NCBI GenBank assembly: GCA_947561395.2
Contig: OX387187.1
Location: forward strand, 21,185,829-21,249,828
DNA length: 64,000 bases
Direction of reading: 5' to 3'
Source of the DNA: Buxus sempervirens
Lineage: Eukaryota > Streptophyta > Magnoliopsida > Buxales > Buxaceae
Shown here: piece after piece, positions 871 to 46,253 of the stretch
Layout: every line of letters begins with the position of its first letter
How positions within the stretch are numbered: position 1 is the stretch's first letter
Notes under the pieces: model-generated
What the model was told of the DNA's origin: nothing
The model's input: the letters and a program-made list of their open reading frames with translations, nothing else
The model's database searches: none
Made by a program: the position numbers and the translations under genes

Positions 871-2550
871 TGTGAGACATAGAAAATCAGCTAACTGACA
901 TCCTCATCATCACGCAGGATTAATAAAATGAAGGAGTCGCCATCATTCCTTTTTAGGTGTGAATGGACTCCACAATGATTAAAAAAAATGAAAAATAGAG
1001 TTAAAAGTAACTCTAATTTAAGGTTAAATCCAGAGAATGGGTAAGGATATTAGGTTATGAATAGGGGAAGGTGTTAGGCACCCCTATTCATCCACACAAG
1101 GTGGTTGCCAAGTGTTGTTCATGCTTGAAATACTTTCTTGATAATAAAATACTCAAAAAGTGATTAAAAAAAGACAAACACATGTGACATTTTTCATATG
1201 GGTAGCCCAATTGAATTTAGGCTCTCATTATGAATGTGTCTCTTCTAGGATTTAATCATCAGGTAAAAAAAACGAAAAGAAAACTTGAATAAAATCTAAT
1301 CAAATCAAATTTGAAAAGTTTAACCCAAAGATAAGCCATTTTGAAAACCTAGCTTAAACTGTGAGTATGTGCACTTAATTCATAGAATCTGAATCAAAGT
1401 CATCTGAAAATAGTTAGAAAATACTCAAAAAGAATTTAGGGTAAGGATTCTGCTCATAAATCTCATTGATTGAAGAGAATGAACCGAATATACCTGTATT
1501 GAGACAAAAAGCCCCAACTAGAGAGAGTAGACCATGAAGGTCTTCTCTTGAAGATGAGATCACTTAAAATTGACTTAAGAAATTCTAAAAGATTGATCTA
1601 AGGCCACTGATCTCAAATCTATCGTAGTGAACATGATAGATCCCAAATCTAAGCCTATTTTACACCAAATCAAGTGATATGTGTGTTTGTGTAAGAAATC
1701 AGATTTTTTTAGGAGAGAATGAAAATCCAATGCTATAAAGAGCATGATCCTGGTATTCTCTCCAGAAAATGAAATCAAAACTCACAATATTAACAAGCAC
1801 ATAGAAATATGAATCTACAGGTATATAATTCAAAATAGGTTCTATACCTAGGGTTCTATTCTCATTCTTGTTTCCCCTAGCTCTCTCTCTTCACGTTTTA
1901 CGGCTAGAGAGGGTGCTTGAGGTACTCGGAGATAGGTTTAGGGTTTCAAATACAAGCAGGCCTTATTCTACAGAAATAGAGAAGATTAGCCTACCCTAGA
2001 ATTCAAGAAAAGAAAGGGAGAAAGGAGAGGCTTACCTTGGTTTGAGAAAGCAAAGAGGCAGGGGTTCCATTCTTCTCTTGGAGCTCTTCAAGCTTCAATT
2101 CTCAGCCATTTGCTTGAGGAGAGGCCCTCTATTATAGGCAAGAGCATGGGCAATAAAGTCCTAAGGGTAGACACAAAAGTATATCTAGAACCTTCCAACT
2201 CAAACCTAAGGCTTGGATTTGAGGAATTTGGCCAATTTCGAAGGCTAATTTGGGGAATTCCCACCTCCCAGATAGAGGTATAGAAGTAAATAAGTGAAAA
2301 CTCTCGGGGTTTTCCCATTTGGGACAAATCATTTGTATCCGACAACTTAGGTCGGATACAAACAAACACCTTTGTATCCGAAACAATATTTCAGATATGA
2401 TGAAAAAGTTTTGTATCTGAAAACTATTTTCAGATACAGAGATAAGAACTTTTATCCAAATTTTAATTTCGGCTACAAACAAAATAATTGTTTTTTATGA
2501 TTTCGGCCAATTATTCATCATTTTATACAGTGTAATTTAGGGTGTCTACA
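871..2550 (-). mobile_element. Solo family-A LTR (A0) with 5-bp TSD
   Basis: On the minus strand it starts TGTAGACACCCTAAATTAC at 2550 and ends in TCTCACA at 871. These are the termini of the A1 LTR at 47745-49555. The flanks 866-870 and 2551-2555 are both CAACT, a 5-bp target-site duplication, and no internal sequence is attached. It is therefore a solo LTR left by LTR-LTR recombination. It keeps a dyad array (2335-2476), a TATA-like box near 2130 and a splice-donor-like GTAAGC near 2030. The short reading frames inside it are not genes. Confidence 0.92.
2335..2476 (-). repeat. 39-bp-period dyad array, 4 units, in LTR A0
   Basis: Four imperfect dyads start at 2335, 2374, 2413 and 2452. Each has a 9-nt arm (first unit GTATCCGAC), a 7-nt centre and a 9-nt complementary arm (GTCGGATAC), and 14 nt separates units. 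Arms change to TTTCAG/CTGAAA-like forms in units 2-3 while the symmetry stays. It lies upstream of the LTR TATA box in the LTR's own orientation. Confidence 0.85.
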
Positions 2551-2555
2551 CAACT

Positions 2556-2880
2556 CATGTTGAGAATCATACATTTATTGGCTTCTTTTTGCTTATTGTT
2601 TAATAACCTTACAAGCAATATTATAGCATGATAAGCATGTGACAATCATCTTGTATGGATGAATGGGGGCATCTAACACTTTCCCCTACTCATAACCTAA
2701 CCCCCTTGCCCAATCTTTGGTGTAGACCTTAAATTTGGGCTACTTTTGCTCTCTTTTGAACTTTGTATACACACTTTGGTGACCATCCACACCAAGACCC
2801 ATGGATGGTGTTGACTCTTGTTTTTTGTTGAATTCCACGAGGTATGTGAGGAATCCTTAGCAATTTCCATGGTCCCACAG
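2556..2880 (+). mobile_element. Right (U5) part of the old family-A LTR
   Basis: This continues the LTR interrupted at 865. The text at 2640-2720, about a TGTATGGATGAATGGGGGCAT stretch followed by CCCCTACTCATAACC, matches the U5 of A1 at 49317-49380 and of A2 at 37630-37690. The 9-nt TGGCGACTC element of the other copies is decayed here to TGTTGACTC near 2809. Confidence 0.6.
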
Positions 2881-2888
2881 TGAGTGTC

Positions 2889-2988
2889 TGTTGAGATATT
2901 GTATTCAGAGTCTCTATATACATAGTTACACATTCACTTATCAACTTAAGGTTTTAGGTTCAATTGGGTATTTTACATGGTATCAGAG
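2889..2988 (+). mobile_element. Short copia-like LTR and Met primer binding site
   Basis: The stretch from TGTTGAGATATTG (2889) to TTTTACA (2977) is followed directly by TGGTATCAGAG (2978-2988). That is the usual primer binding site for initiator tRNA-Met in plant LTR elements. The LTR would be only 89 bp, so it is either internally deleted or from a miniature element. The downstream text to about 3040 reads like a copia leader, but no coding region follows. Confidence 0.65.
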
Positions 2989-3418
2989 TAGGAGGATTTG
3001 TGTTTGACTCCTAGAGGCGAGTTGCCTTAATAGATAATAAGGAATATGGTTCGCTCTTTTTGCGCCTCTATATATTCTTCTGCTATGACCTGCAACATAA
3101 AATGGTTTATCTTCTCCATCTTGACTTTTTTTTTTTGCTTTCCGATTTTGGTGGCGTTTTACATTTTGATAATCGAGTTCTTTGGTGAATTTTCTGAGAG
3201 TGGCTTATTGGGGTTTTGTATACTGGTCGTGCTGGCCCGGGCATGCCTGAGGCACGACAAGGCACGGCCCGCCCCTTGGGGCGTGCCATGCCGTGCCTGG
3301 GGTCCTAGGGCCGCAGCACGCCAGGGCACGCGGCCCGCCGGACCGGCCCGCTTAGCCCACGAGAAAGCTAGCCGCTTCCCTCCAAAAAAGTGGTTTTCAA
3401 CCACTTTTTGCCCATTTT

Positions 3419-3540
3419 ACCCCCCCCCCCCCCAACAGCTATATAACAGCCATATTGGGGGGGGGGTATAGTTGTAATTGATTATTAAAATACCTTTTCT
3501 ACCCTTCTAACTGCAAAATAACAGTCATATTGAAGGGTAG
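3419..3540 (+). repeat. Two tandem hairpin modules upstream of the hAT TATA box
   Basis: Module 1 has C14 (3420-3433) and G10 (3457-3466) as arms. Module 2 has arms CTACCCTTC (3499) and GAAGGGTAG (ending 3540). Both enclose a related loop of the form AACnGCnnnATAACAGnCATATT. The arms differ between modules but each is self-complementary. Confidence 0.7.
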
Positions 3541-3576: not shown

Positions 3577-3931
3577 GGCTTACCCTTTCCCACTCCAAAC
3601 CACACATCTTCTACAATCTCCTACTCTTTTCTAATTGATTATCAAGAAATAGTTGCTTTGCTAATTGTTCTAATTGGAAATTGGTGATACTCTCTTCTAA
3701 TTGTTCAAACATCAGAAGTGGGAAATTGGACTCTGGAGGTTGAAGGCTTCAACTGCAAAGTTCAAGCTTCATTCTAAAGAGGTATTCTTCTATTTAATTT
3801 TCCGATTTTAAAATTAGTATAAATATTATTATTATAAGTAAGTCTCTCCTTCTACCTTTCTTATAAATTAGTATTACCAAAAATTTATTATTATATTATT
3901 TATTAAGAATTTGTTTTTCCAAATTTTGATA

Positions 3932-5992
3932 ATGGACCCTAGGGGCAATCCTATGTTCTTTAACACTAAACAAAGGGAATTTCTTAGACCCTTTTCTGAC
4001 CCAACCTTTTCTGATAATATAACCGAACCCCCATATGGTGACCCTCCCATCCAAGATCATGAAAGTGAATTGCCTTTCCAAGAGATGGGATCATCTTCCC
4101 TACCACCTAAGAGTGCCAAGAGGAGTAGAACCTCCAATGTTTGGCTCAATTTTACAATTGAAAATATAGGGAGTGAAGAGAGGGCAGTTTGTAACCACTG
4201 CAAGAAAACTTTTAGTTGTAAAGGAAAAAGTGGTACAGGCCACTTGCAACGGCATTTGCAGAAATGCCTTTCAAAACATGGCCAATTAGACCCTAGGCAA
4301 GCACAAATTTCCAGCAGTAGTGTTAATTTGAGTAATTTTATTTTTAATCAAGAAGAAACTAGGCTTGAAATAGTAAAGTGGGTAATTCAAGAAGAATTAC
4401 CCTTTAAATTAATAGAATCTAAAAGATTTAACCGTTTAATAACCAAATATCTAGCACCACAATTTAAATCTTTCTCACGCCACACTTTAAGAAAGGATGC
4501 TATAAAATTATACGGAAAAATGAAAACCGGATTAATAGAAACTTTTGAAAACAATAACTTTAAGGTAGCTTTAACTTCAGATATTTGGACAAGTAGACAA
4601 CAAATAAGTTATTTAGCTATAACTGCACATTATATAGATGAAAATTGGAATATGGAAAAAAGAATACTAACTTTTGAAGCACTAGATTCTAGCTATTCTG
4701 GACTAAATATATCAAATGATATAAGTAGAAATCTAAGAAATTATAAAATACACAATAAAATAATGGCTCTAGCACTTGATAATGCAAGTGCTAATAATGT
4801 TGCAGTAGGAATATTAAGACAACAATTAAACTTAAATATAGATGGAAGTTTATTTCATGTTAGGTGTGCTTGTCACATCTTAAACTTAGTTGTGCAGGAT
4901 GGCTTAAAAATTGTCCATCATCATTTAACAAATATTAGAGATGCAGTAAGATATTTAAAACAATCTAGCACAACCGCTAGGGAATTTAAATATTATTGTG
5001 AAACTTTAGAAAAGCAACCTAAAAAAATTACCCTAGATGTTGAACATAGGTGGAACTCAATATATTTAATGCTAGAAGCTGCGCTAGCATTAAGACAAGA
5101 ATTTACAATATTTTATAAAACTAAAGTGCCTGAAAGTGAACTAATAGACCTTGATTGGGAAATAGCAGAAAATTTTTTAAAGTTTTTTATGATGGAACAA
5201 GATATTTATCAGTGGTTTATTACCCAACATCCTCGAGTATTTTAACTTGTTTATATCAAATAAGTATTTGCTTTCAACAATATAGAAACATTCCCATTGC
5301 TAAGGATATTTGCCCTGCAATGGAAGCTAAAATTTTAAAATATTGGCAAGATATGCCTAATTTATATTGTTTAGCTACTACAATGGACCCTAGGATTTAA
5401 TTAAGAGTGGAAGACTTAATAGATGGAATAAATGAGAATATGAATTCTTCTTTTCAAATAGATATATGTAAAATAAGAACCTTATTAGAAAGACTATTTT
5501 ATGAATATGATACTAGTAGTAGTACACATGGTCATACTCAAATCCAACAAGCCCTACTAGATAATTCCCCTTGGAATTTTTTAAGTGGGAGAAGAAAGGG
5601 AAAACAACCAGCATCTTAGTAGCGGGGGATCATCTGAATTAAAGATTTATTTAGAAAGCCCCCCAATAAATTTCAATTCTATGGAAGAACGTAATTCTTT
5701 TAACATTTTGACATGGTGGAAGCAAAATCAGGTTAGTTATCTTGTGCTTGCCGCCATGGCATGTGATCTACTAACGGTTCCAGTGTCCACAGTTGCATCG
5801 GAATCAGCTTTTAGCGCATGTGGACGAACCGTGGACGACTACAGGAGTAGATTAACGCCGGAGATGGTGCAAGTATGTATCAGTCTTACAGATTGGTTAA
5901 GGGCAGAATTGAGAGATCAGGAATTTGAAGATGATCAACTTGCTGGAGACTTCGATGATTTGAATCTTGATGAATTTAGTCATCCAGATTAA
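3932..5992 (+). pseudogene. hAT transposase (zf-BED, DUF4413-like, hATC), frameshifted
   Basis: The product would be a hAT-family transposase, which cuts and pastes its own element through an RNase-H-fold core and dimerises through its C terminus. I chose the start at 3932 (MDPRGNPM); an in-frame ATG at 3911 adds seven residues unlike the family. The order seen is: a BED zinc finger at about residues 60-110 (CNHC then HLQRHLQKC); a long middle region with TSDIWTS and LDNASANN, matching the hAT core; a W near VEHRWNS; and the dimerisation region with VSTVASESAFSACGR near the C terminus, ending at 5992. The frame changes at about 5170-5180, next to T runs, and returns near 5600-5615. An in-frame TAA stands at 5398-5400, just after MDPRI. 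It is therefore inactive. Family identity is secure. Confidence 0.92.
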
Positions 5993-23908: not shown

Positions 23909-23972
23909 GTAGCCGACACTACTTGTCGGCTACACACAAGTCCTAGGTGATCAGACCTGAGTTGTCGGATCA
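23909..23972 (-). repeat. 39-bp-period dyad array, 2 units (B1, downstream)
   Basis: Dyads at 23909 (arms GTAGCCGAC/GTCGGCTAC) and 23948 (TGATCAGAC/GTCGGATCA) have 7-nt centres and are exactly 39 bp apart. Lying downstream of the TATA box on the minus strand, this array would be transcribed. Confidence 0.85.
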
Positions 23973-25716: not shown

Positions 25717-25819
25717 GTATCCGACCATATAGGTCAGATACACTAACCCCTTAGTGTATCCGACCTATATGGTCGGATACACCAAGTCCCATTTGTATCC
25801 GACATAAAATGTTGGATAC
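25717..25819 (-). repeat. 39-bp-period dyad array, 3 units (B1, promoter-proximal)
   Basis: Units start at 25717, 25756 and 25795. The arms are GTATCCGAC with GTCAGATAC, GTCGGATAC and GTTGGATAC in turn. Centres are 7 nt and spacers 14 nt. Confidence 0.9.
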
Positions 25820-25899: not shown

Positions 25900-25963
25900 G
25901 TATCCGATGAATAGTGTTGGTCACTCACAAAAATACGTGTATCCAACATTTAAGATTGGATAC
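25900..25963 (-). repeat. 39-bp-period dyad array, 2 units (B1, distal)
   Basis: Units at 25900 (GTATCCGAT/GTTGGTCAC, decayed) and 25939 (GTATCCAAC/ATTGGATAC) share the 9-7-9 plus 14 geometry. Confidence 0.75.
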
Positions 25964-27219
25964 AAATCCGATATTTACGGATTTAGCCCCTGGATATTCG
26001 CAGATTCATCCGATACTCTTAGATATTCACAGATTTGGTCCCTGCAAAATTTTGCTTTAAACCCTGGGATATTTTACATGTTTGGATATTTACGGATTGC
26101 CCCTCGAGATATTTTCTTGCGCCACTCGCCACGTTTGCAGCCTTTTGCCACGTGTGCAGCTTTTTGGGTTTTGTTGCTCAGAAACTTCGACAGCTCATAT
26201 CTCCTTCATCCGGACTCCGATTTGGGCAAACTCAGTTGCATTAGAACTGTATCGGAGCCCTCTATCCAGTGACATAAGGCTAAGCACCTGGCACGGGGTT
26301 CAGCGAAAAGTCAACTTTCGGCTCCCCTTCCAGTTTGACCGTCTTGCAGAACCTTCATCCGGACTCCGATTCCAGCAAACTAAGTTGCGTTGGAACCGTG
26401 TCAGGATTCTCTATCCATTGAGATAAAGCAAGGTGGCTAATTATCACTTGATCAAAAAGTCAACTTTTCACCCCTTAGGGTTTGACTTTCTTCCCGGGGT
26501 ATGCATTTCCGGCTCTTCCGGGAGCGCAAAAATGAGGTGCTTACAGCTATCCCTCTTTGCCGGAGTCACCTTGCAGATGAACGGCAAAGAGAAAAAAAAG
26601 AATCTTATTTTTGCGCCTGGCATTTCTGTCATCATGGTCGACGAGCTTAGTCCTTTGAAGTTTTCATTTAAAAGGGAAGCGTCCAAATGATATGGAGTCA
26701 CTTCCTGGCTTCAGAGTTTCCTGACCCTTTGCTTTTCGGGTTTTTGTAGGGCAACTCTTTAGCGTTTGATTTAAGTTTGAAAGAGATTAGATTGGACTTG
26801 AGCTCGCCAACCTGTTTCAGTGTTGATGCCAGACACTTGACAATATTCTTTTCTTTTTGTTTGTTCCATTAAAGCTTTTAGGTGCTTTCAGATTTCCTTT
26901 GTCTTTTCTTGGGCTTAGGACAATTTTCTTTTTTTAGCCGGGAGTTGGTTCAGACTGCGGAAGGAGGGAAGGGATGAGGCAGGAAGAGAGAAGGAGGAAT
27001 TGCTGCTGGTGAGGAGGTGCTTTCAGCACTGTCCGGTGCCTCAAGGAAGTCCACACACCTGCCCTACTCTATTTACAAAAGTGGGAAACAAAAATTACAA
27101 TGGGGGCCAATTTGCCCAATGGTTCTTCATTTCTTGATTGTTTATCATTTCCAAGAATGGAAACAACTTGTTCAGCTTCATGGAGACACTTTGCTCAGGG
27201 GACGCTGTGTCCTTTAGCA

Positions 27220-27960
27220 TTGGAAGATGCTTTACTCCTTGAGGACACATTCCTGTGTCATTTAGATGTGGGAGATCGCTTGCTCCTTGGGGATTTCAAA
27301 AGTGGGAGTCGCCTTGCTCCTTAGGTACTTCAAATGTGGGAGTCGCCTTGCTCCTTAGTATCTCAACTTGCTCCTTAGGGACACATTTCCGTGTCATTCA
27401 AATGGTGGGAGATGCTTTGCTCCTTAGGGACACATTTCCGTGTCATTCAAATGGTGGGAGACGCCTTGCTTCTTAGTATTTCAAATGGTGGGAGACGCTT
27501 TGCTCCTTAGGGACACATTTCTGTGTCATTCAAATGGTGGGAGACGCTTTGCTCCTCAGGGACACATTTATGTGTCATTCACATGGTGGGAGACACTTTG
27601 CTCCTTAGTATTTCAAATGGTGGGAGACGCTTTGCTCCTTAGGGACACATTTCCGTGTCATTCACATGGTGGGAGACGCTTTGCTCCTTAGGGAAATATT
27701 TCCATGTCATTCAAATGGTGGGAGAGACATATTTCCATGTCATTCAAATGGTGGGAGATGCTTTGCTCCTTAGGGACATATTTCCGTGTCATTCAAATGG
27801 TGGGAGACGCCTTGCTCCTTAGGGACACATTTCCGTGTCATTCAGATGGTGGGATATGCCTTGCTCCTTAGTATTTCAAATGGTGGGAGACGCCTTGCTC
27901 CTAAGGTTTTCAATCTTGGGAGACACCTTGCTCCATTAGTTTTAGGAGTCGCCTTGCTCC
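27220..27960 (+). repeat. 49-bp and 34-bp mixed tandem repeats
   Basis: The core text CTTTGCTCCTTAGGGACAC, followed by a CCGTGTCATTCAAATGGTGG stretch, recurs about a dozen times. CTCCTTAGGG starts at 27371 and 27420 (49 bp) and then 27503 (49+34). The shorter unit skips the GACACATTTCCGTGTCATT block. That block is itself a dyad (GACACATTTCCGTGTC). Confidence 0.85.
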
Positions 27961-28006
27961 AGGGATGCCTTGCCCTTTCAGTTTTGATAGACGCCTTGCT
28001 CTCTGT

Positions 28007-28374
28007 GGTTGGGAGACACCTTGCTCCATTAGTTTCGGAGTCGCCTTGCTCCAGGGACCCCTTGCCCTTTCAGTCTTGAGAAACGCCTTGCTCTCTGTGG
28101 TTGGGAGACACCTTGCTACATTAGTTTCGGAGTCGCCTTGCTCCATGGACACCTTGCCCTTTCAGTCTTGAGAGACGCCTTGCTCTCTGTGGTTGGGAGA
28201 CACCTTGCTCCATTAGTTTCGGAGTCGCCTTGCTCCAGGGACGCCTTGCCCTTTCAGTCTTGAGAGACGCCTTGCTCTCTGTGGTTGGGAGACACCTTGC
28301 TCAATTAGTTTCGGAGTCGCTTTGCTCCATGGACACCTTGCCCTGCTATCTTCAATTATCGGAGGCACTTTGCT
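28007..28374 (+). repeat. 92-bp tandem repeat, 4 units
   Basis: GGTTGGGAGACACC starts at 28007, 28099, 28191 and 28283, an exact 92-bp period with few substitutions. It follows the 49/34-bp array and shares the GGGAGACRCCTTGCTC core. Confidence 0.92.
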
Positions 28375-29758
28375 CCACTCTGTCTTCAATTTTTGGAGGC
28401 TTCTTTCTCCATTAGGATTGGGAGACACCTTGCTCCTTCTGTCTTGGGAGACACCTTGCTCCTTATGTCTTGATTTATTTCTCTGTCTGGGTTGTTCCCG
28501 AGGTTGCCTCTACCATTCTCCAACTCATCCGTCGGCAGCTTTGGCGTTAATCTCTTTTGTGCCTCATGTATGAATACATGATGACGGTTCTTCCTTTGCA
28601 TTAGCGTGTGACTATGCCATGATTCTTTTCTTGTCTACCTCAAGTTCTGTTAGTACCTGCAAAAGTTTAAGTGAAATTTAGTTAACTAGAATTTGCTTAT
28701 CATCAGAATTATGTGCAAATTCAAGCAATTGCTTTCTCTTTTCTTTTTTTTTTCTTTTTTTTTGATAGAAATCTTTTGGAAGTTCACCAAATGTTTGGAG
28801 TTTCCTCTTTCAAAGTGGGTCCATAGCAAGACCAGTAATCTTTGGGTTAGTTACCTGACACCCTCATTTAGACTTATAAAATGGTGCCTCCCGGCACTCC
28901 TTGTAAGGGTCTCAACATTTTTGCCTTCAATGGCTTGCCCTGGGTTGAATGAGGGGGATTGTTCCGGTTCAGGGGGTTTCTTTGGCACTACCCTCCCCTA
29001 GTTCTTTTTACTTTCTTTCTTGTTTTTTTCCTTTTTCCCACCCTCGGTTGGGGGTTGTGTAATGGTTTCTCTCTCAATTGGTTCCCTTTTCCAGGTTCTG
29101 TGCCTTGCCCAATCTGAGGGCCCTGTCAATTTCCACGGATCATGATCCAATGATCAGAGAAGACTCATTAGTAGGACAAAATGTAGGCTTTGGTTCCAGT
29201 GTTTAGAAATGAAGGATAAAACAGGCTCAAAACCTATGTGACTTCACGCTATGGGTAACCATCATGTCTAGCCAAAGTCCTTCTCTGCCTCCTTTTTTTT
29301 TTGGTTCTGTCATTGCCAATTTGTCCAAGATTCAATGTTACATTCTCTGTAATCAGAAAGGGCTTCACAGTAGGACGAAATGTAGGCTGGGTTCAAGGGT
29401 CCAGAAGAAATGATATGAATGCTCAAAATTGATGAATGGGGTAAGAGCCATGTCCTGTCCACTTTTTTTGTTAGGGCTTGCTTCACCCTTCGTTCCTTCA
29501 ACTTTGTGTCCAATCTTTGATTTGTAGCTTCTTTCTCCTTTTTCCATCTTTGTTCTTTTCTTTCTTTCCCTTCTTTCTTGGGTCTTTTGCCCTAATTCTT
29601 GATTCTTGCTTTCGGGGTTTGCCCCGGCTTTTGTATTTTTTTTCTTTTAAGGGATTGCCCCAGTTCCCTTTTTTGAATTATTGTTTTCTGGGGTTCTCCC
29701 CTTTCCTCCTTTCTGCCCCTCTGCATTTAGGGTGCTTTTCACTTTGCCCTGTCTTCGC

Positions 29759-32061: not shown

Positions 32062-32164
32062 TGTAGACACGCTAAAATCGCGCTGGAAAAATAATGAACA
32101 ATTGGAAAAAATCATTCTTTCCTTTAAAACCAGCACAAAATTTGAAAAATAAGCATTTTTTATT

Positions 32165-32306
32165 GTATCCGACAACTCAGGTCGGATACAAGCATATTCT
32201 TTCATATCCGACAAAAGTTGTCAGATACAAGCAGGAATTAATGTATCCGACGACATATGTCGGATACATATATGTGTTCTTATATTCGATCTAAGTTGTC
32301 GGATAC
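32165..32306 (+). repeat. 39-bp-period dyad array, 4 units (A2)
   Basis: Units start at 32165, 32204, 32243 and 32282. Arms include GTATCCGAC/GTCGGATAC and ATATCCGAC/GTCAGATAC; all centres are 7 nt. It lies about 170 bp upstream of the TATA box. Confidence 0.92.
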
Positions 32307-32481: not shown

Positions 32482-34227
32482 GGATGCTCCTCCTTAAGCA
32501 AATGGCCAATAAGTTGGAGATCGAAGAGCTCTGAGTGAAGAAGGGAACCGCCGCCACATTGCTTCCAGAAGCCCAGGTAAGCCTAAAACCCCTCTTTATT
32601 TTTCTGTTCTTACATTCTAGGATTAGCTCTTTTTTCTACCTTTATGTAGAATAAGGCCTACTCTTTGTGTATGCAACCCCTTCGTCTACTTAAAGTACCT
32701 CAAGACTCCCCTTAGCCGTAAAACGTGAAGGCGGGATATAGGGAAATGAGATTGAGGATTGATCCTTAGTGTTAGAACCCTATTGAAAAGCCTTTTGATT
32801 CTATGAAAACCGTTTCATACTCAAAGTACCCCAAGATTATCTCGAAGAACCGTAAAACGAGGAGAGAGAACTAAGGGAAACGAGAATAGAACGGAACCCT
32901 AAGTCTTTTTAGAACCCCATTTGATTGATATGAATGCTATGTGTGGTTATATTTGAAGAAATGATTTTTACACATATACACATATTGCACTTGTTTTTGT
33001 CGGAATCGGCTTGTATTTCGGATCTATTGCATTCATTGTGATAGATCTGAAATAAATAGCCCCAACCAATTCTGGGATGTATCTAAAAGATTTTCAAAAT
33101 GATTTCAAGCAAGTTCTTTTTGAGTATTGAAGACCTCTAGGTCTAACCTCTCGGTTTTGGGCATTTTTGCTCACTTTTGGGGGTTTTTGGCATATTCTTT
33201 CCAATCGGAGAGAATGGTGAGCCAAACTTGTGCCCTATTTCTTTCTAGAGGTTCTCCAACACTTTTTCAAGTGGTTTTGATTCATATTACACTGATCACA
33301 CACACCTTATCACTGTTTTGAGTTGATTTTCTTTAAAAAAAGCTGAAATTGGAGTGATTCCAAAGCCATGGGAAAGTTGAGGCTGTCTAGTTTATGCCTG
33401 CAAAAGTTCGTCAATTTTTATGGAGTGGATTTTTGACACCTCTCAGTCGAAGTTGATAGGTCAGTTCAGGCTAGATTGTGGAACCCGTCACTTTGACTGA
33501 GCGCCATATGTTCGTTTTAAGTCCGATTAGAGTGATTCTTGTTTCTGAGTTTTCCTTTGAAAGTTTAATTTCAAATCCAGTTGGTTTCATAATTTTTTGA
33601 TTCCATTTGTGTCGTGGGTAACAGATTTACTCAGAACTGCTCAACAGCACTTTTTTGGGCTAATTTGTGATCCTCGAGGCCTGTTCGAGAGGTCACCCAA
33701 GGCACATCCGAATGAATTTTTGTATGAGGCTAGTTTTCTTTGAAATATGGTTCTACATACTTAATTCACACCAAATTTCATGGATTTATATGGAGCCGAT
33801 TTGTCTAAATGATTTTCCAAACTTGCCCACTTGTCACTTTTAACTATCTCCAGCAGCAGATTTCAAAGGAGAATAACTCCTAGGATTTTAACCGGAATTG
33901 ATTGAAAATTTGCATGAGTCTTCTATTTATCATAATCTTTCAAATGGATTTGGTTTGATTCAATTTAAACTAGATTTGAATGATTTCAAGACAAATGGCT
34001 CTATCTTTTACCGAATTTTCCGGATTTGACTCAACTTGGTTTTGTGCAATTTTTGCTTTGATTTCCATCTATTGGTGATATTCCAGAAGTGATATTGACA
34101 TAAAAGAGGATCTGGAATTCATTTGGATTTCTCATGTGAAGGTATCACACATTTGTTTAATCCTTTTTTAAGGTTTTTGATTATTTTAGCAAGCTTTCTC
34201 ATTTTCTTTAGCATGAACAACACTTGG

Positions 34228-37200
34228 TATAAGCACCTCATTTTTGCGCTCCCCGAAAAACCAAAAAATGCAAACCCTGGCCAGAAAGTCAAACCCTAAA
34301 GGGGTGAAAAGTTGACTTTTTGATCAAGTAAAAATTGGCCACCTTGCTTTATATCATTGGATAGAGAATCTCGACACGGTTCCAACGCAACTGAGTTTGT
34401 AGGAATCGGGGTCCGGATGAAAGTTCTACGGGCGGTCAAACTTGAGCAGAGCCAAAAGTTGACTTTCTGCTAAAATCCGATCCAGAGGCCTAACCCTAGG
34501 TCATTGGATAGAGAATCTCGACACGGTTCCAACGCAACCGAGTTTGCAGGAATCGGGGTCCGAATGAAGGTTCTGCAGGCGGTCAAACTTGAGCAGAGCC
34601 AAAAGTTGACTTTCTGCTAAAATCTGATCCAGAGGCCTACCCCTAGGTCATTGGATAGAGAATCTTGACACGGTTCCAACGCAACTGAGTTTGCAGGAAT
34701 CGGGGTCCGGATGAAGGTTCTGCAGGCGGTCAAACTTGAGCAGAGCCAAAAGTTGACTTTCTGCTAAAATACAATCCAGAGGCCTACCCCTAGGTCATTG
34801 GATAGAGAATCTCGACACGGTTCCAACGCAACTGAGTTTGCAGGAATCGGGGTCCGGATGAAGGATCTGCGGGCGGTCAAACCTGAGCAGAGCCAAAAGT
34901 TGACTTTCTGCTAAAATCCTATCCAGAGGCCTACCCCTAGGTCATTGGATAGAGAATCTCGACACGGTTCCAACGCAACTGAGTTTGCAGGAATCGGGGT
35001 CCGGATGAAGGTTCTGCGGGCGGTCAAACTTGAGCAGAGCCAAAAGTTGACTTTCTGCTAAAATCCGATCCGGAGGCCTACCCCTAGGTCATGGGATGGA
35101 GGGCTCCGATACTATTCTAATGAAACTATGTTTGCCCAGATCGGAGTCCGGATGAGGAAAATATGAGCTGACAAAATTCTCAAGCAGCAAAACCGGCAAT
35201 CTGCGAACGTGGCAAAAAGCTGCGCACGTGGCGAGTTGCGCAGGAAAATATCCCGGGGATCAAATCCGTAAATATCCAAACATTCGAAATATCCCAGGGA
35301 CTAAATCTGTAAAAATCCGAGAATATCGGATTAAACCAAAAATTGCCAGGGACTAAATCCGAATTTTTTAGATTTTTACGACCGGCGAGCGACGGCATTA
35401 AATGATTTTCATCATTATGCCGCTCGCGCGGACGTGGCAAGCGAGTGGGCGCCGCCTTTGTTTTTCCCTTATATAAGCCGCGCGAAATCTCGCGCAAGAG
35501 GGTTGGAAGATTTCGAAAAAAAAATCTAAGTGTTGGAAGAAATTTGGTTCGGAGGATTTTTGGTGCAGTGCCCAAGCTCCTTCCCCACCCGAACCTTACC
35601 TGTCTCAGTGGCTTCGGCCTCCCCAAGCTCTCCACCTTGATCCAACCCCCTATCCTTGCTTCTTCCTCGTCCCCGCACAACCAAACGAAGGCCGGTTGCT
35701 ATTGGAGGTGCAAGAGAGGAGAGTTCCAGCGCTCGTGCCACCTCGAGGAGGCTCCCTCACTCAGCTCCAGAACTCAAAGAACCACCAGGTAAACATCCCT
35801 GTTACATTGGGTTACACATATATGAATATGCAATGTTTTTTGTAAGCCGGTCTTATTCGGTGGCATGAGGCCACAGCCATGAAAACTTGCCATGTTTTTT
35901 CATTCACTTCCATCCGATAAATACCACCCTGCAAGGAAGAGGAAGATGCATGTGCTGTTCACGTCGAGAAGGGAGCATGTTCCCCAAGTACCCGCCATCT
36001 AATGTACCCCTGTAAACCCCCTCCTCCTTCCCTTCTTCGGATATTAGTGTGCATGCTTGAGGTCCAGTCGGTTGGAGGAAAGTGCATGTAATGTCTGCAT
36101 GCTGTTTTTTTTTGTTTTTATTATGCTGAACTTGCTAACATGCTATTTGCTGCTTGTGCACCCTTGAGCATGCTCCCATCACCCTCCTTTTTTAAGCTGT
36201 TAATGCATCTGTACCTGTTTTTTTATCGGGTTTGTTTTTTCTTCTTTTAAGAGATTTTGGGTTGTGGGATGAAGCATGAAGCATGTTTAGATTAATTTGA
36301 CTGCCAGTTTAAGTGTCTTCTGGGGGGTGGCCGAAGCCCTGGAAGGGCTTACAGAGCCTAAAAAACGAGTTACAGAGCTTAAAATCAGCTAAGAAATGGA
36401 GTTTGAAAGAAAACCGAGAGCATCGAGTGTCCGCTGAGTTCGCGCGAAGCTCGCGCGTACCCTTCTCGCGAGGCTCGCGCAAAGCTCGCGCGAACCTTGC
36501 GCCCACTTTTTTTTTGTGTTTTTTCGTTGTTTTCGGTCCGCCCATTTCGCGCCGACCCAACACAATGAGCCAGTTTTTTTTTCTCTGACAGAGTGTCTAT
36601 CTTGTGTTTTTTTTTGTGTGATTATTGCTAGATGTGAATGATATTTCCGAACCGGATAAACCAATAGGGTTTCTGGGTCACCCGAAAACCCGACATGGGA
36701 CTTGGACTCCCGGTCCAACTTGACTTCCAATGGGCCTTCCAACGGGGCCCACCAAGCCCAATAAACACCAAAGCATGCCATTAAAATAACTTAAGTAAAA
36801 TGAACAATTTGAACCGGGCGGGCCAAACCCAATGTGGCCCACCCGAGCCTTGTTATGCGAAATTGATGCATGAATTGCGTGGTTTGGCCGAGACCAAGGG
36901 CAAGGGCCTACCAGGCCCGCCAAAGCCCACCAACCGAACCAAGGAAGGGTACAAACCCTAACTTCCGGTAACTTGGGCTTACAAGCCCAGATTTGGACTG
37001 CGGGCCTCAAGCCCAGTGTCCAAATCACTTTGGCAAAATTAAAAAGATAAATCCAATAAAAATACTTGGACACCATGTGGGCCCACCTTAGGGGCCCACA
37101 AACCGGTCCGGCCCACTTGTGCATGAAAAACACTTAATCTTCAAATCTGAACTTAAAGTAAAATCAATTGAACTAACCAAAGCCCAAAGGACCTCTCAGG

Positions 37201-37623
37201 CTAGACTGAGGTCCACAAGGGTACACGGGCTTGACTAAGCCCACCAAGGATACCGTGGGCCTTCCAACGGGGCCCACCCAACTAGACTCAGATCACCTAA
37301 GTAATCAAGATAAAAGCAACTAAAGGGACCCACACCACTCAAGTGGTCCCGCCAGACTTAACCAAATTGCATACCGGATTAGGAATCAGGTGAGACCAAT
37401 GTAAGCTGACTCAAACCAGGGAACCCACGGGACCCGTCATCCGACGGGGTGGACCGGGGTGTCTACGGACTTCCCCGAACCACAACCGAGAACAGACTTA
37501 GAATCTCAAGCCGCAGACCAAAAAGCCCTAATAAGCAAGATTAGGCACCCAGGTGTCCGCCTGCACCCCATCAGGCGGTGACGACTCCGAATTCCCACGT
37601 GCCGCGTTTCCCACGCGCGCACA
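34228..37623 (+). mobile_element. Solo family-B LTR (B2) inside LTR A2
   Basis: It starts TATAAGCACCTCATTTTTGC (the TG end mutated to TA) and ends CGCGCGCACA. The 5-bp TSD CTTGG lies at 34223-34227 and 37624-37628. The A2 LTR text reads continuously across it. It holds a 147-bp tandem array, a TATA-like TATATAAG near 35470, a donor-like CAG/GTAAAC near 35788 and a GCGC-rich dyad cluster (36432-36505) instead of the GTATCC dyads of B1, B3 and B5. Confidence 0.92.
34354..35093 (+). repeat. 147-bp tandem repeat, 5 units plus a partial sixth, in LTR B2
   Basis: TCATTGGATAGAG starts at 34354, 34501, 34648, 34795 and 34942, and a decayed form (TCATGGGATGGAG) starts at 35089. Every step is exactly 147 bp. 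Units differ by only a few bases. B3, B4 and B5 show only one or two diverged units at this position. Confidence 0.95.
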
Positions 37624-37877
37624 CTTGGCAACCACCTTGTGTGGATGAATGGGGGTGCCTAACACCTTCCCCTATTCATAATCTAATCCCCTTACCTATC
37701 TCTGGATTTCATTTTCAAGTAGAGTTATTTTTACTCTAGTATTTGCCTTCTTGCTCTTTTGAATCTTTTGGTGTCCATTCACACCCTAAAATTGAATGGT
37801 GGCAACTCTCCCATATTTCGTTGAGCCCGTGTGATGACGGAAAGAATCATCTCGGTGATTTTTCCATGTCTCACAAC

Positions 37878-37896
37878 TGGCGACTCTGCTGGGGAC
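37878..37896 (+). promoter_or_regulatory. tRNA-Arg primer binding site (A2)
   Basis: TGGCGACTCTGCTGGGGAC follows the LTR end after two bases. It is complementary to the CCA-ending 3' part of plant tRNA-Arg(ACG), as in Tat/Ogre-type elements; one position differs from A1. Confidence 0.88.
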
Positions 37897-39641
37897 TTGT
37901 GGATTTAAGCCATTTTGTGTATTTGTTCATGCTTTTTCTTTACTTTTGAATGCTTGCTATTTTGCCTACTTTACTTGTGTATATTGAATCTCAAATCTGA
38001 TTTGTATGATTAGAAAAATCACATGGATAAAAGCATGGGTATGTTGCTTGATTGTGTTTAGGAATGTGTTTAAGGGAAAGCCCATCTTGTAATAAGACTT
38101 TGCTATATTTTGTGAGAGCATGTGTTATTTTGGGTTTCAATGCCATGAGTTGAACATGAAAAAGTTTTTTACCTGAAATCTGGAAATTTAGTGTAACTTT
38201 TGGGGTATTCGAACATGATTCCCATGAACAATGCTTTCTAGTGCTTAAATATTTTTTTTGGTGGCATGCCTTTGATTTGGGGTAGGGGATGACATGATTT
38301 GAGCAAGAAAGCAAGAAAAAAAATCTGGAAATTCAGTAGCCATTTTGGGGGTTTTCAAGCATGTTTTCCCCAACAAAACACCTTTTGTACAATGCATCTA
38401 GTTGTTGTATTTTTAGGCTTACATTTGGGTATGATTAAGGCACTTTGAGCATGAAAATGAGAACCATGAAACCCAGAATTCAGTAGAGGTTTTGAGAGGT
38501 TTTCAAGCATGTTTTCCCCAGTTAAAAGCTTCTTGTACAATACATATAGTTGCTGTATTTTTAGGCTTACATTTGGGCATGAATAAGGCACTTTGAGCAT
38601 GAGAAAAAAAGCATGAAATCTGGAAATTTAGGTAATGCTTTTGGGGTTTCAAGCATGCTTTCCATGTTTTAATTGTTGTTTGTACAATGTGATAACATGT
38701 TTGGGTGCCACTTTTGTGTATATGATGGTCATGAGCATGTTTGGGTGTTTATTATCTTGTGCTTGTGTTTTTAATTCCAATATGATTGTCATATTTGCCT
38801 TGACTTGAAATGGTATGCTTGGCTACGAAAAAGAGTGGCAAGGGGCTGGGAAGTTGTGAATGTACCTCAAAATTCAAAATGCACTTGAGCACTATAAACA
38901 CTTTGCACAGCCTACCCATTACCTATAGAAAGTTGAACCCGAATGTGTGTAGCTTGGCGCACCGAGGTCGATACTTCGGAAAGCAAAAGTGAAAACATTT
39001 ACCTTAGAATTTGAGTCAATAATGTGATGACAATGAGATCTGTGATTCGATTCCGGGCATCACTAGACTTGAGTTCTAAGTTGCCAATTAAGCCAAAACC
39101 CAAAAACCATACGCTTGAAGGTGGAGAAACACATTTTCAGCTAAAAGTACACAATTACATTTGGGGAATTAGGTGTAAATGTGGGAAGGCCGTTTGCATG
39201 TTTCACAGGCCAAGGTACAATACGAATACCATATTGAAGGTAACACAAGGTGGCAAGGTAAAGCCATGTTTTCTTTTTTTTATTATCTTCATGAAAATTA
39301 AAAGTCATGGTGTCCACATGGATGGGATGAAATTTTTTCCCAAAAATATTTGTAGCCTAAGGTTGGTGTAACCCATAGGAAGAGTCTCTAACTCTGCTTA
39401 GAAGTCATCCTACCCAAAGTCCATGCAAGAGGCAACCCAGTGTACCAAATCCAAGAATTGGTGTATAACTTTGGAGGGTACAAGTACCCTCATGAATTTG
39501 TGAATTTTTGCAAGTATGATGTCAAAGCCCAATTTGGGGCTGAATTTGAAGGCCAAGTCAAGGTGAACATCAAGGGGGAATGAAAATAACATGATCTGGT
39601 GAAAAAATGGGTCAAAAAGGGCCATTTCGGCATTAACCGAC
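37897..39641 (+). mobile_element. Family-A leader (A2), cut by LTR B3
   Basis: This non-coding leader is homologous to 49577-50740 of A1. A 101-bp block (38909-39009) is about 94% identical to A1 50099-50199, while neighbouring text is far less similar. Repeated short segments (GGCTTACATTTGGG, GCATGTTTTCCCCA) occur at 38350-38600. The gag-pol part is not present in the window because B3 begins at 39642. Confidence 0.8.
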
Positions 39642-40220
39642 TATAAACACCTCATTTTTGCGCTCCTGGAAGAGCCGGAAATGCAAAACCCGGCTAAAAA
39701 GTCAAACCCTGAGGGGTCGAAATTTGACCTTTTGATCAAATGATAATTGGCCACCTTTTTTATCTCAATGGATATGGAATCCCGACACGAGTCCAATGCA
39801 AATGAGTTTGCTGGAATCGGAGTCCGGATGAAGGTTCCGTGGGCCGGTCAAACGTGAGGGTGAGCGAAGGTTGACTTTTTTTGAACCCCGAGCCAGGTGC
39901 TTAGCTCTATATCATTGGATAGAGGGCTCTGATACGAGTCCAACGCAACTGAGTTTGCTCAAATTGGAGTCCGGATGAAGGAGATATGAGCTGTCGAAGT
40001 TTCCGAGCAGCAAAACCCAGAAAGTTGCACACGTGGCAAAAATCCGCACACGTGGCGAGTAGCGCAAGAAAATATCTCAAGGGGCTATCTGTAAATATCC
40101 AAACATGCAAAATATCTCAAGGTTTAAATCAAAATTTCGCAGGGACCAAATCTGTGAATATCTAAGAGTATCGGATGAATCTGCGAATATCCAGGGGCAA
40201 ATCCGTAATTTTTTGATTTG

Positions 40221-40284
40221 TATCCAACCAAATATGTCGGATACACATACCTCAGTGTATAACCGACACTATTCATCGGATACA
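40221..40284 (+). repeat. 39-bp-period dyad array, 2 units (B3, distal)
   Basis: Units at 40221 (GTATCCAAC/GTCGGATAC) and 40260 (ATAACCGAC/ATCGGATAC) have 7-nt centres and a 14-nt spacer. Confidence 0.85.
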
Positions 40285-40363: not shown

Positions 40364-40466
40364 GTATCCGATATATTATATCGGATACACTTGAAGGTTA
40401 GTATAGCCGGCCTTGGTGGCCGGATACACACATCCTCTAGTGTACCTGGCCTCCAAGGCCGGATAC
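40364..40466 (+). repeat. 39-bp-period dyad array, 3 units (B3, promoter-proximal)
   Basis: Units start at 40364 (GTATCCGAT/ATCGGATAC), 40403 (ATAGCCGGC/GCCGGATAC) and 40442 (GTACCTGGC/GCCGGATAC). The last unit ends 12 nt before the TATA box. Confidence 0.92.
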
Positions 40467-41516: not shown

Positions 41517-41619
41517 TGATCCGACAACTCAGGTCAGATCAACAGAGACCTATTTGTAGCCGGCAAAAGATGCCGGATACACTGAGACCTGTGTGTAACC
41601 GGCATCTCAGGCCGATTAC
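41517..41619 (+). repeat. 39-bp-period dyad array, 3 units (B3, downstream)
   Basis: Units start at 41517 (TGATCCGAC/GTCAGATCA), 41556 (GTAGCCGGC/GCCGGATAC) and 41595 (GTAACCGGC/GCCGATTAC). The position is downstream of the TATA box, equivalent to 23909-23972 in B1. Confidence 0.9.
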
Positions 41620-42669: not shown

Positions 42670-45454
42670 TGCGCGCATCGGAAACGCGGCACGGGAAAGT
42701 TTGGAGTCGCCACCGCCTGATGGGGTGCAGGCAGACACCTGGGTGCCTAATCTTGTCTATTAAGGCTTGGGTCTGCGGCTTTTGAGATTCTAAGTAGGGT
42801 CTCGGTTGCGGTCCGGGGAAGTCCGTAGACACCCCGGTCCACCCCGTCGAGTGACGGGTCCCTTAGGTTTATCCTGGTTTGAGTCAGCTTGCTTTGGTCT
42901 CACCCGATTCCTAATCTGATATACAGCTCAGTTAAGTCTGGCGGAACCACCTGAATGGTGTGGGTCCTTTTAATTGCTTTTATCTTGATTAATTAGGTAA
43001 TCTGAGTCTGGTTGGGTGGACCCTGTTGGAAGGCCCACAGTGTCCTTGGTGGGCTTAGTCAAGCCCATGTACTCTTGTGGGCCTTAGTCTAGCCTAAGAG
43101 GCCCTTTGGGCTTTGGTTAGTTCAATTGATTTTACCTTTGGTTTCAACTTGGTTTTAAGTGGTTTTCATGTAAGGGTGGGCCGGATTGGTTTATGGGCCC
43201 ACATGGTAGCCAAGTAATTTAGTGGATTTATCTTTTGGAGTTTCCAAAAATGGGTTGGACACTGGGCTTGGGGCCTGTAGTCCTGATTAGGGCTTGAAAG
43301 CCCAAGTTACAGGAAGTTAGGGTTTGCACCCTTCTTTGGTTCGGTTGGTGGGCTTTGGCGGGCCCGGTAGGCCCTTGCCCTTGGTCTCGGCCAAACCACA
43401 CATTTATACATCAATTCACTAACAAGTTCAGGTGGGCCGCATTAGGTTTGGCCACCCAGTTTAATCAGTTAATTTTACTTATCTTGATTAAGTTACATGC
43501 ATACATTCCATTGTGTTTATTGGGCTTGTTGGGCCCCGTTGGAAGGCCCACTGGAAATCAAGTTGGACGGGGGGTCCAAGTCCCATGTTGGGTTTTCGGG
43601 TGACCCGGAAACCCTATTGGTCCATTGGGTTTGGTTTGAAGAAGTCACCCATATCCAGTAAAATCACAGAATATACAGAAATCACGAAATACACAAAATA
43701 TACACAAATCCCATAATCTGGGTCCAAGGGGAGGGACTTGGGGCTCCTGTGGGCGGTAAAGGGCATTTTCGGGTTTCCAAAAAATATAGCAATTCAGTAA
43801 TAAAAAAGGGGTGCGCTGACCTCAGGCGCTAGGCGTGAGGTCAGCGCGAGCTGGGTGGACCGAAACCCCACAAAAGACCTTTGCGCGAAAAGCGCCTCGC
43901 GAGAGCTTGGCGGACACCCTGATGCTCTATTTTTTTTCTTTTTCTCTCAAAGACTGGCTTGATTTCCAGTCTCTGTAACACCTCCCAAGTGCTTCTAGCA
44001 TCCCCAGAAGACACCTAAACATGCTTTGAAATTATTCTAACCTACTACAAGACACAACTCCATATCAAGAAACCAAGCTCGGTTATTATATGAAAAAAAA
44101 AAAACAACTACAGATACACTAACAGCTGCAGGGGGAGTGGGGGGGTGATGGGAGCATGCTCACAGGTGCACAAGAAGGAGACAGTAGGTGGCAGGGGGTT
44201 GGGGGAGCATGCTGGCAAGTCTAGCAAACCATAAAACAACAAACAAAAAACAATAACAAACAAAGATCGCCTACGTAAGATGGAAACCTAATTTTTGCAC
44301 CTACGCCTGCACCTGAACTCTATGCATGCACACAGACATTCGGAGAAGGGAAGGAGAAGGGGGGTTTACAGGGATACATTAGATGAAGGGAACTTGAGGG
44401 AACATGCTCCCTCTTTAACGTAGACAACGCAAGCATCTTCCTCTTCCTTACTTGGTGGCCTTCCTCGGGTAGAAATGAAAAGAAAAGGCATGGCAAGCTT
44501 TCATGACAATGGTCTTATGGCACGGAACAAGACCGGCTTATGAGATCCTTTAGAAAACATTGCATATTCATATATGTGTAACCTAAAGTAACAAGGACCC
44601 TTACCTGGTGGTTCTTAAGTTCTGGAGCAGAGTGGAGATGCCTCCTCGAAGCCGGACAGCAGTTGGAGCTTCCACTTTTACCGCACCGACAGTAGCAATG
44701 CTTCCACTCGCTTAGGTTGAAATGGAGGAGAACGAAGGAAGGGTGAGGCGCTTGGGGTTTTTTTTTTGGAAGCAAGGAGTCAACGGGAGCTGGGGAGAGC
44801 AGGTTTCCGGAAACCGAAGGCCAACGAGAGAAAAGCTTTCCCAAAAAAATTTCCAACCTTTCGCAATGGAGCATCGCGCGGTTTATATAGGAGAGAAAAA
44901 AGGGTATCCGCTAAGCTTGCGCTCAGCGCATATCGCGCTTGCCTTGCTTGCACAAGCGGCAAAATTATTGAAAAAACCATTAATGCGACTACTCGATGGT
45001 CAAAAAATCCGATTTTTTTGGATTTGGTCCCTGAGTATTTTCGATTTAATCCGATATTCTTAGAATTTTACAGATTTAGTCCCTGGGATATTTCGTAGGT
45101 TTGGATATTCATAGATTTGATCCCCGAGATATTTTTCTGCGCAACTCACCACGTGTACAGCTTTTTGCCACGTGTGCAGTTTGCTGGTTTTGCTGTTCGG
45201 AAAATTTGACAGCTCATATTTTCTCCATCCGGACTCCGATCAGGGCAAACTCAGTTGTGTTAGAATCGTATCAGAGCCCTCTATCCGATGACCTAGGGGT
45301 AGGCATCTAGATCGGATTTTAGCAGAAAGTCAACTTTCGGCTCCCCTAAAGTTTTACCGCCCGCAGAACCTTCATCCGGACTCCGATTCCTGCAAACTCA
45401 GTTGCGTTGGAACCGTATCGAGATTCTCTACCCAATGATATAAAGCGAGGTGGC
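42670..45454 (-). mobile_element. Family-B LTR (B4), inverted, cut by B5
   Basis: Reading on the minus strand it ends GATGCGCGCACA at 42670 and has U5 TGGCGACTC (42704-42712), a donor-like CAG/GTAAGG near 44610 and TATATAAA near 44890. Its first 100 or so bases are missing because B5 starts at 45455. It lacks GTATCC dyads and, like B2, has GCGC-type dyads, including a perfect 12-bp inverted repeat GCGCTGACCTCA/TGAGGTCAGCGC with an 11-nt loop near 43812-43846. Confidence 0.85.
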
Positions 45455-46007
45455 TGTAAGCACCTCATTTTTGCGCTCCCGAAAAAGCCGGAAATGCAAA
45501 CCCTAAATAGAAAGTCAAACCCTAAGGGGTGGAAATTTGACCTTTTGAGCAAGTGAAAATTGGGCACCTTGCTTTATCTCAATGGATAGAGAATCCCGAC
45601 ACGAGTCCAACGCAACTGAGTTTACTAGAATCGGAGTCCGGATGAAGGTTCGGTGGGCCGGTCAAACTTAAAGGAGAGCCGAAAGTTAGCCCTATGTCAT
45701 TGAATAGAGGGCTCCGATACGAGTCTAACGCAATTGAGTTTGCCCAAATCGAAGTTCGGATGAAGGAGATATGAGCTGTCGAAGATTCCGAGCAGCAAAA
45801 CCGGAAACTGCACACGTGGCGCAGGAAACTGCACACGTGGCAGCCAACGCAGCAAAATATCTCAGGGACTAAATCTTAAATATCCAAAAATCATCAAATA
45901 TCCCAGGGACTAAACCAAAATTCGTGGGGACCAATCCGTAGATATCCGAAAATGTCAAATCAGTCGAATCAGTCAAGTCGAAGGGCAAATCCGTAATTTT
46001 TTGATTT

Positions 46008-46071
46008 GTATCCGGTCATATATATCGGATACACATGGGTTTGTGTGTAACCGACATCAAATGCGGGATAC
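46008..46071 (+). repeat. 39-bp-period dyad array, 2 units (B5, distal)
   Basis: Units at 46008 (GTATCCGGT/ATCGGATAC) and 46047 (GTAACCGAC/GCGGGATAC) have 7-nt centres. Confidence 0.85.
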
Positions 46072-46150
46072 AAAGATATCTTCCAGCGAGATTCGCGCCG
46101 ATCGCCCGACAAATTCGCGGCGACATTTAATTTTCGGATGATTATGTTTT

Positions 46151-46253
46151 GTATTCGGCATTGAATGCCGGATACAAAGAGGCACCTGTGTAACCGGCCA
46201 TAGAGGCCAGTTATGAAGAGGGCTTAGTGTATCCGGCCTAAGTTGCCGAATAC
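46151..46253 (+). repeat. 39-bp-period dyad array, 3 units (B5, promoter-proximal)
   Basis: Units start at 46151 (GTATTCGGC/GCCGGATAC), 46190 (GTAACCGGC/GCCAGTTAT) and 46229 (GTATCCGGC/GCCGAATAC). The last unit ends 12 nt before the TATA box at 46266. Confidence 0.92.

Follow-up and report, generated by a model that had tools for sequence, protein, structure and literature searches.

Palindromic repeats close to the promoters of plant long terminal repeat (LTR) retrotransposons have been described for the Sireviruses. Bousios et al. (2010) found palindromic repeated motifs (RM boxes) in 13 of these elements, 12 of which have a CGG-CCG signature (PMC2829016). The RM boxes cluster 5' of the TATA box of the LTR, their sequence varies between elements, and the nine ENV-bearing Sireviruses have extra copies in the linker, 77 of 79 being located upstream of ENV (PMC2829016). 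The motif is absent from the classic (non-Sirevirus) Ty1/copia elements that were compared (PMC2829016). Outside the LTR retrotransposons, the VANC proteins of the VANDAL transposons have tandem motif arrays in non-coding parts as targets; these arrays differ between related VANDALs, and in one case the motif is common to the unrelated element AT9TSD1 (PMC5735166, PMC10398659). Here, we describe rows of regularly spaced dyads in 64,000 nucleotides of Buxus sempervirens (assembly GCA_947561395.2, contig OX387187.1, forward-strand positions 21,185,829 to 21,249,828), called the window in the following. They are present in two LTR families, A and B, and, with a different half-site, in a third retrotransposon, element C. 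As judged from the sequence, the arrays are likely cis-regulatory rows of predicted sites for a symmetric dimer, which would act on the promoters of the LTRs and of an accessory gene. All array counts refer to the window, which is AT-rich (GC content 40%).

An earlier note on this DNA had claimed ten dyad arrays in families A and B, built from two 9-nt arms around a 7-nt centre (9-7-9) and repeated with an exact period of 39 bp. All ten are present at, or at most 1 bp away from, the places given. The array placed at 40221-40284 exists but was listed in the wrong register, which gives only 2/9 matching arm positions per unit compared to 8/9 and 6/9 in the shifted register, and its true position is 40220-40283. 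With this correction the 9-7-9 geometry holds for 28 of 28 dyads and the 39-bp step for 18 of 18 internal steps. The features of both families are:

2335..2476, minus strand: second family A LTR array, four dyads, period 39; LTR start at 2550
32165..32306, plus strand: family A LTR array, four dyads GTATCCGAC-N7-GTCGGATAC, period 39; the LTR starts with TGTAGACAC at 32062
167 bp 3' of the array at 32165..32306, plus strand: family A TATA box TATAAATAG
40220..40283, plus strand: family B LTR, upstream dyad pair
40364..40466, plus strand: same LTR, three proximal dyads, with 12 bp between the last one and TATAAAAGG (40479)
46008..46071, plus strand: second family B LTR copy, upstream dyad pair
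46151..46253, plus strand: same copy, three proximal dyads, with 12 bp between the last one and TATAAAAGG (46266)
25900..25963, minus strand: third family B LTR copy, upstream dyad pair
25717..25819, minus strand: same copy, three proximal dyads, with 12 bp between the last one and TATAAAAGG
41517..41619, plus strand: family B downstream array, three dyads, placed about 1.0 kb beyond the TATA box
23909..23972, minus strand: family B downstream array, two dyads, placed about 1.7 kb beyond the TATA box

Within the dyads the two arms agree at 215 of 252 positions, with no mismatch in seven dyads, one in 11, two in five, three in four, and four in a single dyad. A scan with a half-site matrix found 27 dyads with a centre of 7 at a stringent cut-off but no more than one at each of the other centre lengths between 0 and 30, together with 18 everted pairs at spacing 14, and at a looser cut-off it lists exactly the 28 known units and nothing else. 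The matrix was derived from the arms of the same units, and the scan therefore demonstrates exclusivity and not independent discovery. An unbiased scan for at least three near-dyads in phase, beyond whose reach the four two-dyad arrays lie, recovered five of the six arrays with at least three dyads (one only at centre 3) and missed the array at 2335. The same scan gave no rows at all in 20 single-base shuffles within 300-bp blocks, and in the window it also returned unrelated rows with periods of 31 and 62 and a leader repeat with steps of 34, 40, and 47. Concerning the centres and spacers, which had been regarded as free in sequence, the centres are not wholly free because their edge bases are constrained: they begin with A or C in 27 of 28 dyads and finish with T or G in 25 of 28. 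An outer T...A pair lengthens the arm to 10 nt in 23 of 28 dyads.

The arms are the best preserved part of the arrays. In orthologous arrays 267 of 342 arm positions (78%), 81 of 133 centre positions (61%), and 82 of 168 spacer positions (49%) are identical, summed over seven pairwise comparisons that are not independent, as the three family B copies were compared mutually. This arm identity is high despite the CpG in the consensus arm. Many of the arm differences are located at this CG step, positions 6 and 7, as expected if methylated CpG had decayed there. Across copies, there are no indels inside the arrays of 142, 103, and 64 bp, although the flanks of those LTRs do have indels. Between the units of one array, likeness is 78% for the arms, 50% for the spacers, and 37% for the centres. 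Spacers of shuffled letters are 29% alike (10 pairs; the observed value was reached in none of 2000 shuffles). Because this likeness is beyond chance, tandem duplication is the probable origin of the units of an array, of which the arms alone would have been held since. The selection on spacing and symmetry proposed in the earlier note is thus supported by the indel-free arrays, the better preservation of arms compared to centres and spacers, and the covariation of the arms treated below.

The LTRs of family A contain four dyads and those of family B five, with two or three more downstream in two LTRs. The family B LTRs, which start at or near 39637, 45455, and 26545 (minus strand), share a layout of two dyads, a gap of 79-80 bp, three dyads, and a TATA box, and the distance from the last dyad to TATAAAAGG is exactly 12 bp in all three dyad-bearing promoters. 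The minus-strand LTR of family A has a degenerate TATA box, TATAATAG, downstream of the array, and the nearest TATAWAW is found 1821 bp further. Taking ten arrays of families A, B, and C and leaving out the three upstream pairs of family B, a TATAWAW is found within 210 bp for six of ten, compared to a probability of 0.14 for a random plus-strand position. No TATA box was found by the TATAWAW search near after the downstream arrays at 41517 and 23909. The window contains further B-type LTRs at 34228-37625 and 45454-42668 without the arrays. Searching 35370-35800 and 44560-45010 of these LTRs for dyads with at least eight paired positions, one mismatch allowed, a centre of 3-14, and a GC content of at least 40%, we found no alternative dyads. 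By eye, the promoter region of the array-less LTRs is GC-rich in a different way and contains an inverted repeat, long but imperfect, which is followed by TATATAA (35370-35480, 44880-45010). The family B LTRs also contain repeats of a 147-bp type at 34288-35175, 39759-40012, and 45573-45797, which are tandem in one copy and present in twos elsewhere.

The architecture is not restricted to these families. A third element shows it again, built from a different half-site, so the scope of the original observation was too narrow. This element C does not contain any 39-bp dyads but has three arrays of its own:

47848..47951, plus strand: LTR array, eight alternating half-sites GCCCGTA/TACGGGC (four dyads, centre 7); the LTR starts with TGTAGACAC at 47745
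50828..50946, plus strand: leader array, nine alternating half-sites, 8/8 steps of 14 bp; untranslated, between the primer binding site (PBS) and gag
52195..59489, plus strand: gag-pol in separate open blocks (gag; reverse transcriptase (RT), RNase H, additional RNase H, integrase)
60515..61417, minus strand: antisense coding block 2, which matches the C-terminal part of DUF7745 only weakly and below the threshold (8.6e-4)
61655..62326, minus strand: antisense coding block 1, 224 codons, ATG at 62326, with DUF7745 and plant mobile domain (PMD) above the Pfam cut-off
62418..62425, minus strand: TATATAAA, TATA box of the antisense gene; the five-dyad array ends 22 bp 5' of it
62448..62579, minus strand: array before the antisense gene, ten half-sites (five dyads)

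The half-sites of this second code, code C, follow each other at 14 bp in 22 of 24 steps and at 13 bp in the other two. The LTR array accordingly has a period of 28 with one step 1 bp short, and TATAAATAG is found 201 bp downstream of it (TATA at 48153). Dyads with centre 7 are present 17 times in the window, 13 times in the arrays and four times elsewhere, compared to 0-4 at other centres. The phased runs comprise 8, 9, and 10 half-sites, while runs of at least four are absent in 30 dinucleotide shuffles. A weak run of four half-sites at 62848 is located outside the counted arrays; the array counts omit this run, the four non-array dyads, and out-of-phase matches of 5/7 (three in the LTR array, one in the leader array, and one in the antisense array). 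The centres have a GC content of 22% and the 7 nt after each dyad one of 58%. There is no TATA box near after the leader array at 50828 in the TATAWAW search. The leader also contains, at 51086-52020, a tandem repeat with the internal dyad CTGAAAGCCTTTGAATTTCAG, which was not counted as an array because its step varies (34, 40, or 47 bp).

The polyprotein of element C matches RT_RNaseH (335-439), RVT_3 (494-612), and rve (779-876). Its order of RT, RNase H, additional RNase H, and integrase places the element in Ty3 and not with the Ty1/copia Sireviruses. The LTR end is followed by TGGCGACTC, which we take to be a PBS of the tRNA-Arg type (49558). On the minus strand, the antisense gene is located 3' of pol, and its two blocks are in different frames. 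Block 1 matches DUF7745 (6.9e-18) and PMD (1.9e-10), and in block 2 the DUF7745 part is followed by a long charged region that looks coiled-coil-like by eye. A TATAWAW within 30 bp downstream has a probability of 0.023 for a random plus-strand position. With five dyads 22 bp before the antisense TATA box and four dyads in the LTR, the same dyad code is found at two predicted promoters of one element. Further antisense open reading frame (ORF) blocks are located upstream of the PMD gene at 62785-63775 (minus strand), one of them acidic with an Arg/Gly-rich end; these have no Pfam match above the cut-off. Three antisense blocks were searched against NCBIfam and did not match at E <= 0.1. The nested LTRs, the PMD-type ORF, and the Ty3-type polyprotein with its additional RNase H are what would be expected of plant DNA.

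If both codes are aligned on their CCG triplet, the consensus of each is CCG-N11-CGG. This pattern is exact in 10 of 13 code C dyads, and the periods of 28 and 39 bp differ by 11 bp, about one helix turn. The agreement in N11 is suggestive only. In addition, family A and element C are built on a shared frame. They have in common the LTR start, the TATA region and the sequence beyond (75% identity, 1871-2154 versus 48423-48135), the LTR end with the PBS (79%), and the leader (77%). A part of the family A LTR that starts at 32062 is presumably found at 37626-39491, split off by a B-type LTR. Comparing this LTR with that of element C and scoring gaps as differences, the identity is 20-45% per 60 columns from the LTR start to the TATA box, with 23-37% in the array region, and 55-65% in five windows from the TATA region on. 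As far as these alignments tell, the whole upstream region has diverged or been replaced, the array included, and the layout has been retained. Beyond the TATA box, both also contain an LTR segment that includes CCGTAAAACG and is duplicated (48347-48612 and about 32700-32890), preceded by a common AGGTAAG that resembles a splice donor site (both by eye).

The earlier note knew of no described LTR element with such a pattern, but the palindromic CGG-CCG repeats 5' of the Sirevirus TATA box are a clear precedent (PMC2829016), and the arrays in the window are a Ty3/Tat version of these known paired CGG/CCG repeats with rigid spacing. Both systems consist of palindromic paired CGG/CCG triplets, with CCG coming first here, and both have rows 5' of the LTR TATA box and extra copies 5' of an accessory gene (the five dyads in element C). 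In contrast, the RM palindromes are compact with 10-20 bp, and a fixed period or a 7-nt centre is not seen in Table 3 of that paper (PMC2829016). The Sireviruses are Ty1/copia elements and the elements here Ty3/Tat, with an accessory gene that is antisense and of the PMD type. The Sirevirus rule of at least eight copies clustered 5' of the TATA box (PMC2829016) compares to 13 visible dyads in element C, four of which are at that place. By eye, the citrus consensus of the Sireviruses is close to the GC-type arms (PMC2829016). The VANC targets are similar in that they, too, are arrays of short motifs located in non-coding regions, and they diverge among relatives as the arrays do between family A and element C. 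However, VANDALs are DNA transposons, and binding and demethylation have been demonstrated for them (PMC5735166, PMC10398659). The words "palindrome" and "inverted" appear nowhere in the main text of PMC5735166.

With the Ogre elements, element C shares the PMD-type extra ORF and the additional RNase H that, in the Tat clade, follows RNase H and precedes integrase (PMC6317226). With Retand it has in common internal tandem repeats and antisense ORFs that are located 3' of pol (PMC11963269). The main-text parts of the Ogre and Retand papers covered by our search do not mention dyad arrays 5' of LTR or antisense promoters (PMC6317226, PMC11963269). Such arrays of Tat/Ogre elements were also unreported among the literature matches listed, a search that left most subscription papers outside. 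In viral contigs, neither the 39-bp code, queried as patterns of two units, nor code C, queried as a pattern of three half-sites, gave any matches, and the array pattern was not matched at related RT loci. Rfam gave no matches in the window at the gathering score. A single exact dyad in an IMG/VR contig of 61% GC was taken as chance, as a second unit was not seen alongside by eye.

The earlier note left open whether the arrays are half-sites of a protein dimer or a hairpin or cruciform structure. In favour of a nucleic-acid structure, be it RNA hairpins or DNA cruciforms that serve, for example, as sources of small RNAs, the arms of families A and B covary. Re-dealing the arm partners gives 185.8 matches compared to 215 observed (reached in none of 5000 trials), and re-dealing inside one LTR copy gives 198.7 (p 0.0004). 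Pair counting found 21 both-side changes versus 5.4 in shuffles (0 of 500 reach this) and far lower values in slid controls, with the caveat that related units may exceed shuffles even without structure. In orthologous family B dyads, there are 14 co-changes versus 6.4 expected, counted over three non-independent pairwise comparisons. Both copies are symmetric in 11 of the 14, and nine of the 14 affect positions 8 and 9. The covariation is therefore real in families A and B, beyond the shared ancestry of the units. The T...A extension of the arms also agrees with pairing, although it fits half-site recognition equally, and palindrome-rich regions of Sirevirus LTRs are hotspots of small RNAs (PMC5311732). 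However, the sense-strand arm mismatches comprise 17 A-C and 11 G-U and thus do not reveal any wobble preference, which disfavours an RNA hairpin but does not bear on a DNA cruciform. The base just inside the arms is paired in 14 of 28 dyads versus about 12.7 expected from base counts, so towards the centre there is no more pairing than base composition would give, and these bases are constrained without pairing, which looks like half-site recognition. In addition, the arms of the sister arrays in element C do not covary (75 of 91 matches versus 74.5 expected, p 0.51), and a hairpin would not require a 39-bp period. Protein sites therefore fit better and the RNA hairpin is not favoured, the cruciform being less well excluded; overall we regard a structural role as improbable.

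It is even a little less probable that the arrays are without function and that tandem duplication together with quasi-palindrome correction by template switching has made and maintained the symmetric repeats. Such correction would equalise the two arms of a dyad as observed, the likeness of the spacers is what tandem duplication predicts, and some B-type LTRs do not have arrays. But such processes would hardly keep orthologous arms better than spacers, or the arms of one array at 78% likeness with the centres at 37%, nor would they hold the period and the centre constant in LTRs that have indels elsewhere and fix the place next to the TATA box in family B.

The reading as rows of dimer sites is thus preferred. 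According to this model, a symmetric dimer would bind the phased rows through the CCG-N11-CGG core and family-specific flanking bases, and from its position near the LTR TATA box it may activate or de-repress transcription of the Tat-type (Ogre-like) elements. The sites of element C precede both predicted promoters, so both would answer to one factor, which would govern the LTR promoter together with that of the antisense PMD/DUF7745 gene. Several observations weigh against this reading. The above-chance likeness of the spacers means that duplication accounts for part of the regularity. Of the 28 dyads of the 39-bp code, only 10 have both triplets exact, 16 have one, and two have none, and by our own estimate there is a chance of roughly one in ten that the N11 agreement is coincidence. 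The covariation of the arms in families A and B exceeds what independent recognition of half-sites would need. Four of the ten arrays (41517, 23909, 50828, and 2335, the last with the degenerate TATA box) do not have a nearby TATAWAW, and the two further B-type LTRs do not have the arrays. Finally, the divergence between family A and element C spans the region from the array to the TATA box and not the array alone.

Within the dimer model, the bound factor could be supplied by the host or by the element. That the elements borrow stress-related or developmental transcription factors of the host has, in our view, somewhat less than an even chance. ACCGAC or GCCGAC, which we take to be the core of the dehydration-responsive element, is present in the arms, but only in four of 56, while 20 of 56 contain TCCGAC or TCCGGC. 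NAC, ARF, and DREB sites were dropped because their spacing or core does not fit, in a comparison that did not extend to a motif library. The palindromic repeats of Sireviruses mostly match stress-related sites (PMC2829016), which would agree with a host factor. A fixed host factor would, however, account less easily for related elements that combine one geometry with two different codes.

It is also possible, though less probable, that the factor is the antisense PMD/DUF7745 protein itself, acting in an autoregulated activating or anti-silencing loop similar to VANC. The LTR and the predicted antisense promoter of element C carry one code, and this code differs between relatives that have the LTR ends, the TATA region, and the leader in common, just as the VANC motifs of related VANDALs differ. 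PMDs have been found in the extra ORFs of 57% of the Ogre elements (PMC6317226), and the antisense protein TRP28 of Retand, which has a different domain, is predicted to bind DNA (PMC11963269). The host PMD proteins MAIN and MAIL1 are similarly tied to a promoter motif, which is present in 25 of 26 genes of the core set of dependent genes (PMC7156037, PMC9899485). However, the sequence of this DOWN motif, which reads CATGCAGTTT in the promoter of MORC1, is unrelated to the arrays, and a PMD protein that binds DNA is not reported in the parts of the literature searched. The homology search with block 1 (186 candidates, none at E <= 0.001; none at E <= 1 among PDB sequences) and its single-sequence structure model, which is useless at a predicted local distance difference test (pLDDT) score of 38.7, were uninformative. 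In addition, the shared code is seen in one element, and the window does not contain the antisense genes of families A and B. Its fullest form is more tentative still: the protein would bind the CCG-N11-CGG arrays in the LTR, the leader, and its own promoter and counteract silencing by the host, the code would shift between families while the geometry is kept, and elements such as those of family B may make use of the family A code.

No function is known for the additional antisense genes that Ogre- and Retand-type elements carry, and the matching arrays at the LTR promoter and the antisense promoter offer a candidate substrate for the encoded protein. Taken together with the RM boxes before ENV of the Sireviruses, the arrays suggest that unrelated plant LTR elements have converged on a layout of one dyad code, two promoters, and one accessory protein. 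If this is true, sequence-specific self-activation would extend from DNA transposons to LTR retrotransposons.

Apart from these elements, the window contains the remains of a hAT-type transposase at 3872-5992, with a BED zinc finger block and a C-terminal dimerisation block. Compound tandem repeats with periods of 34, 49, 83, 92, and 132, which are based on a GGGAGACGCCTTGCTCC-like unit, are found at 27182-28472.

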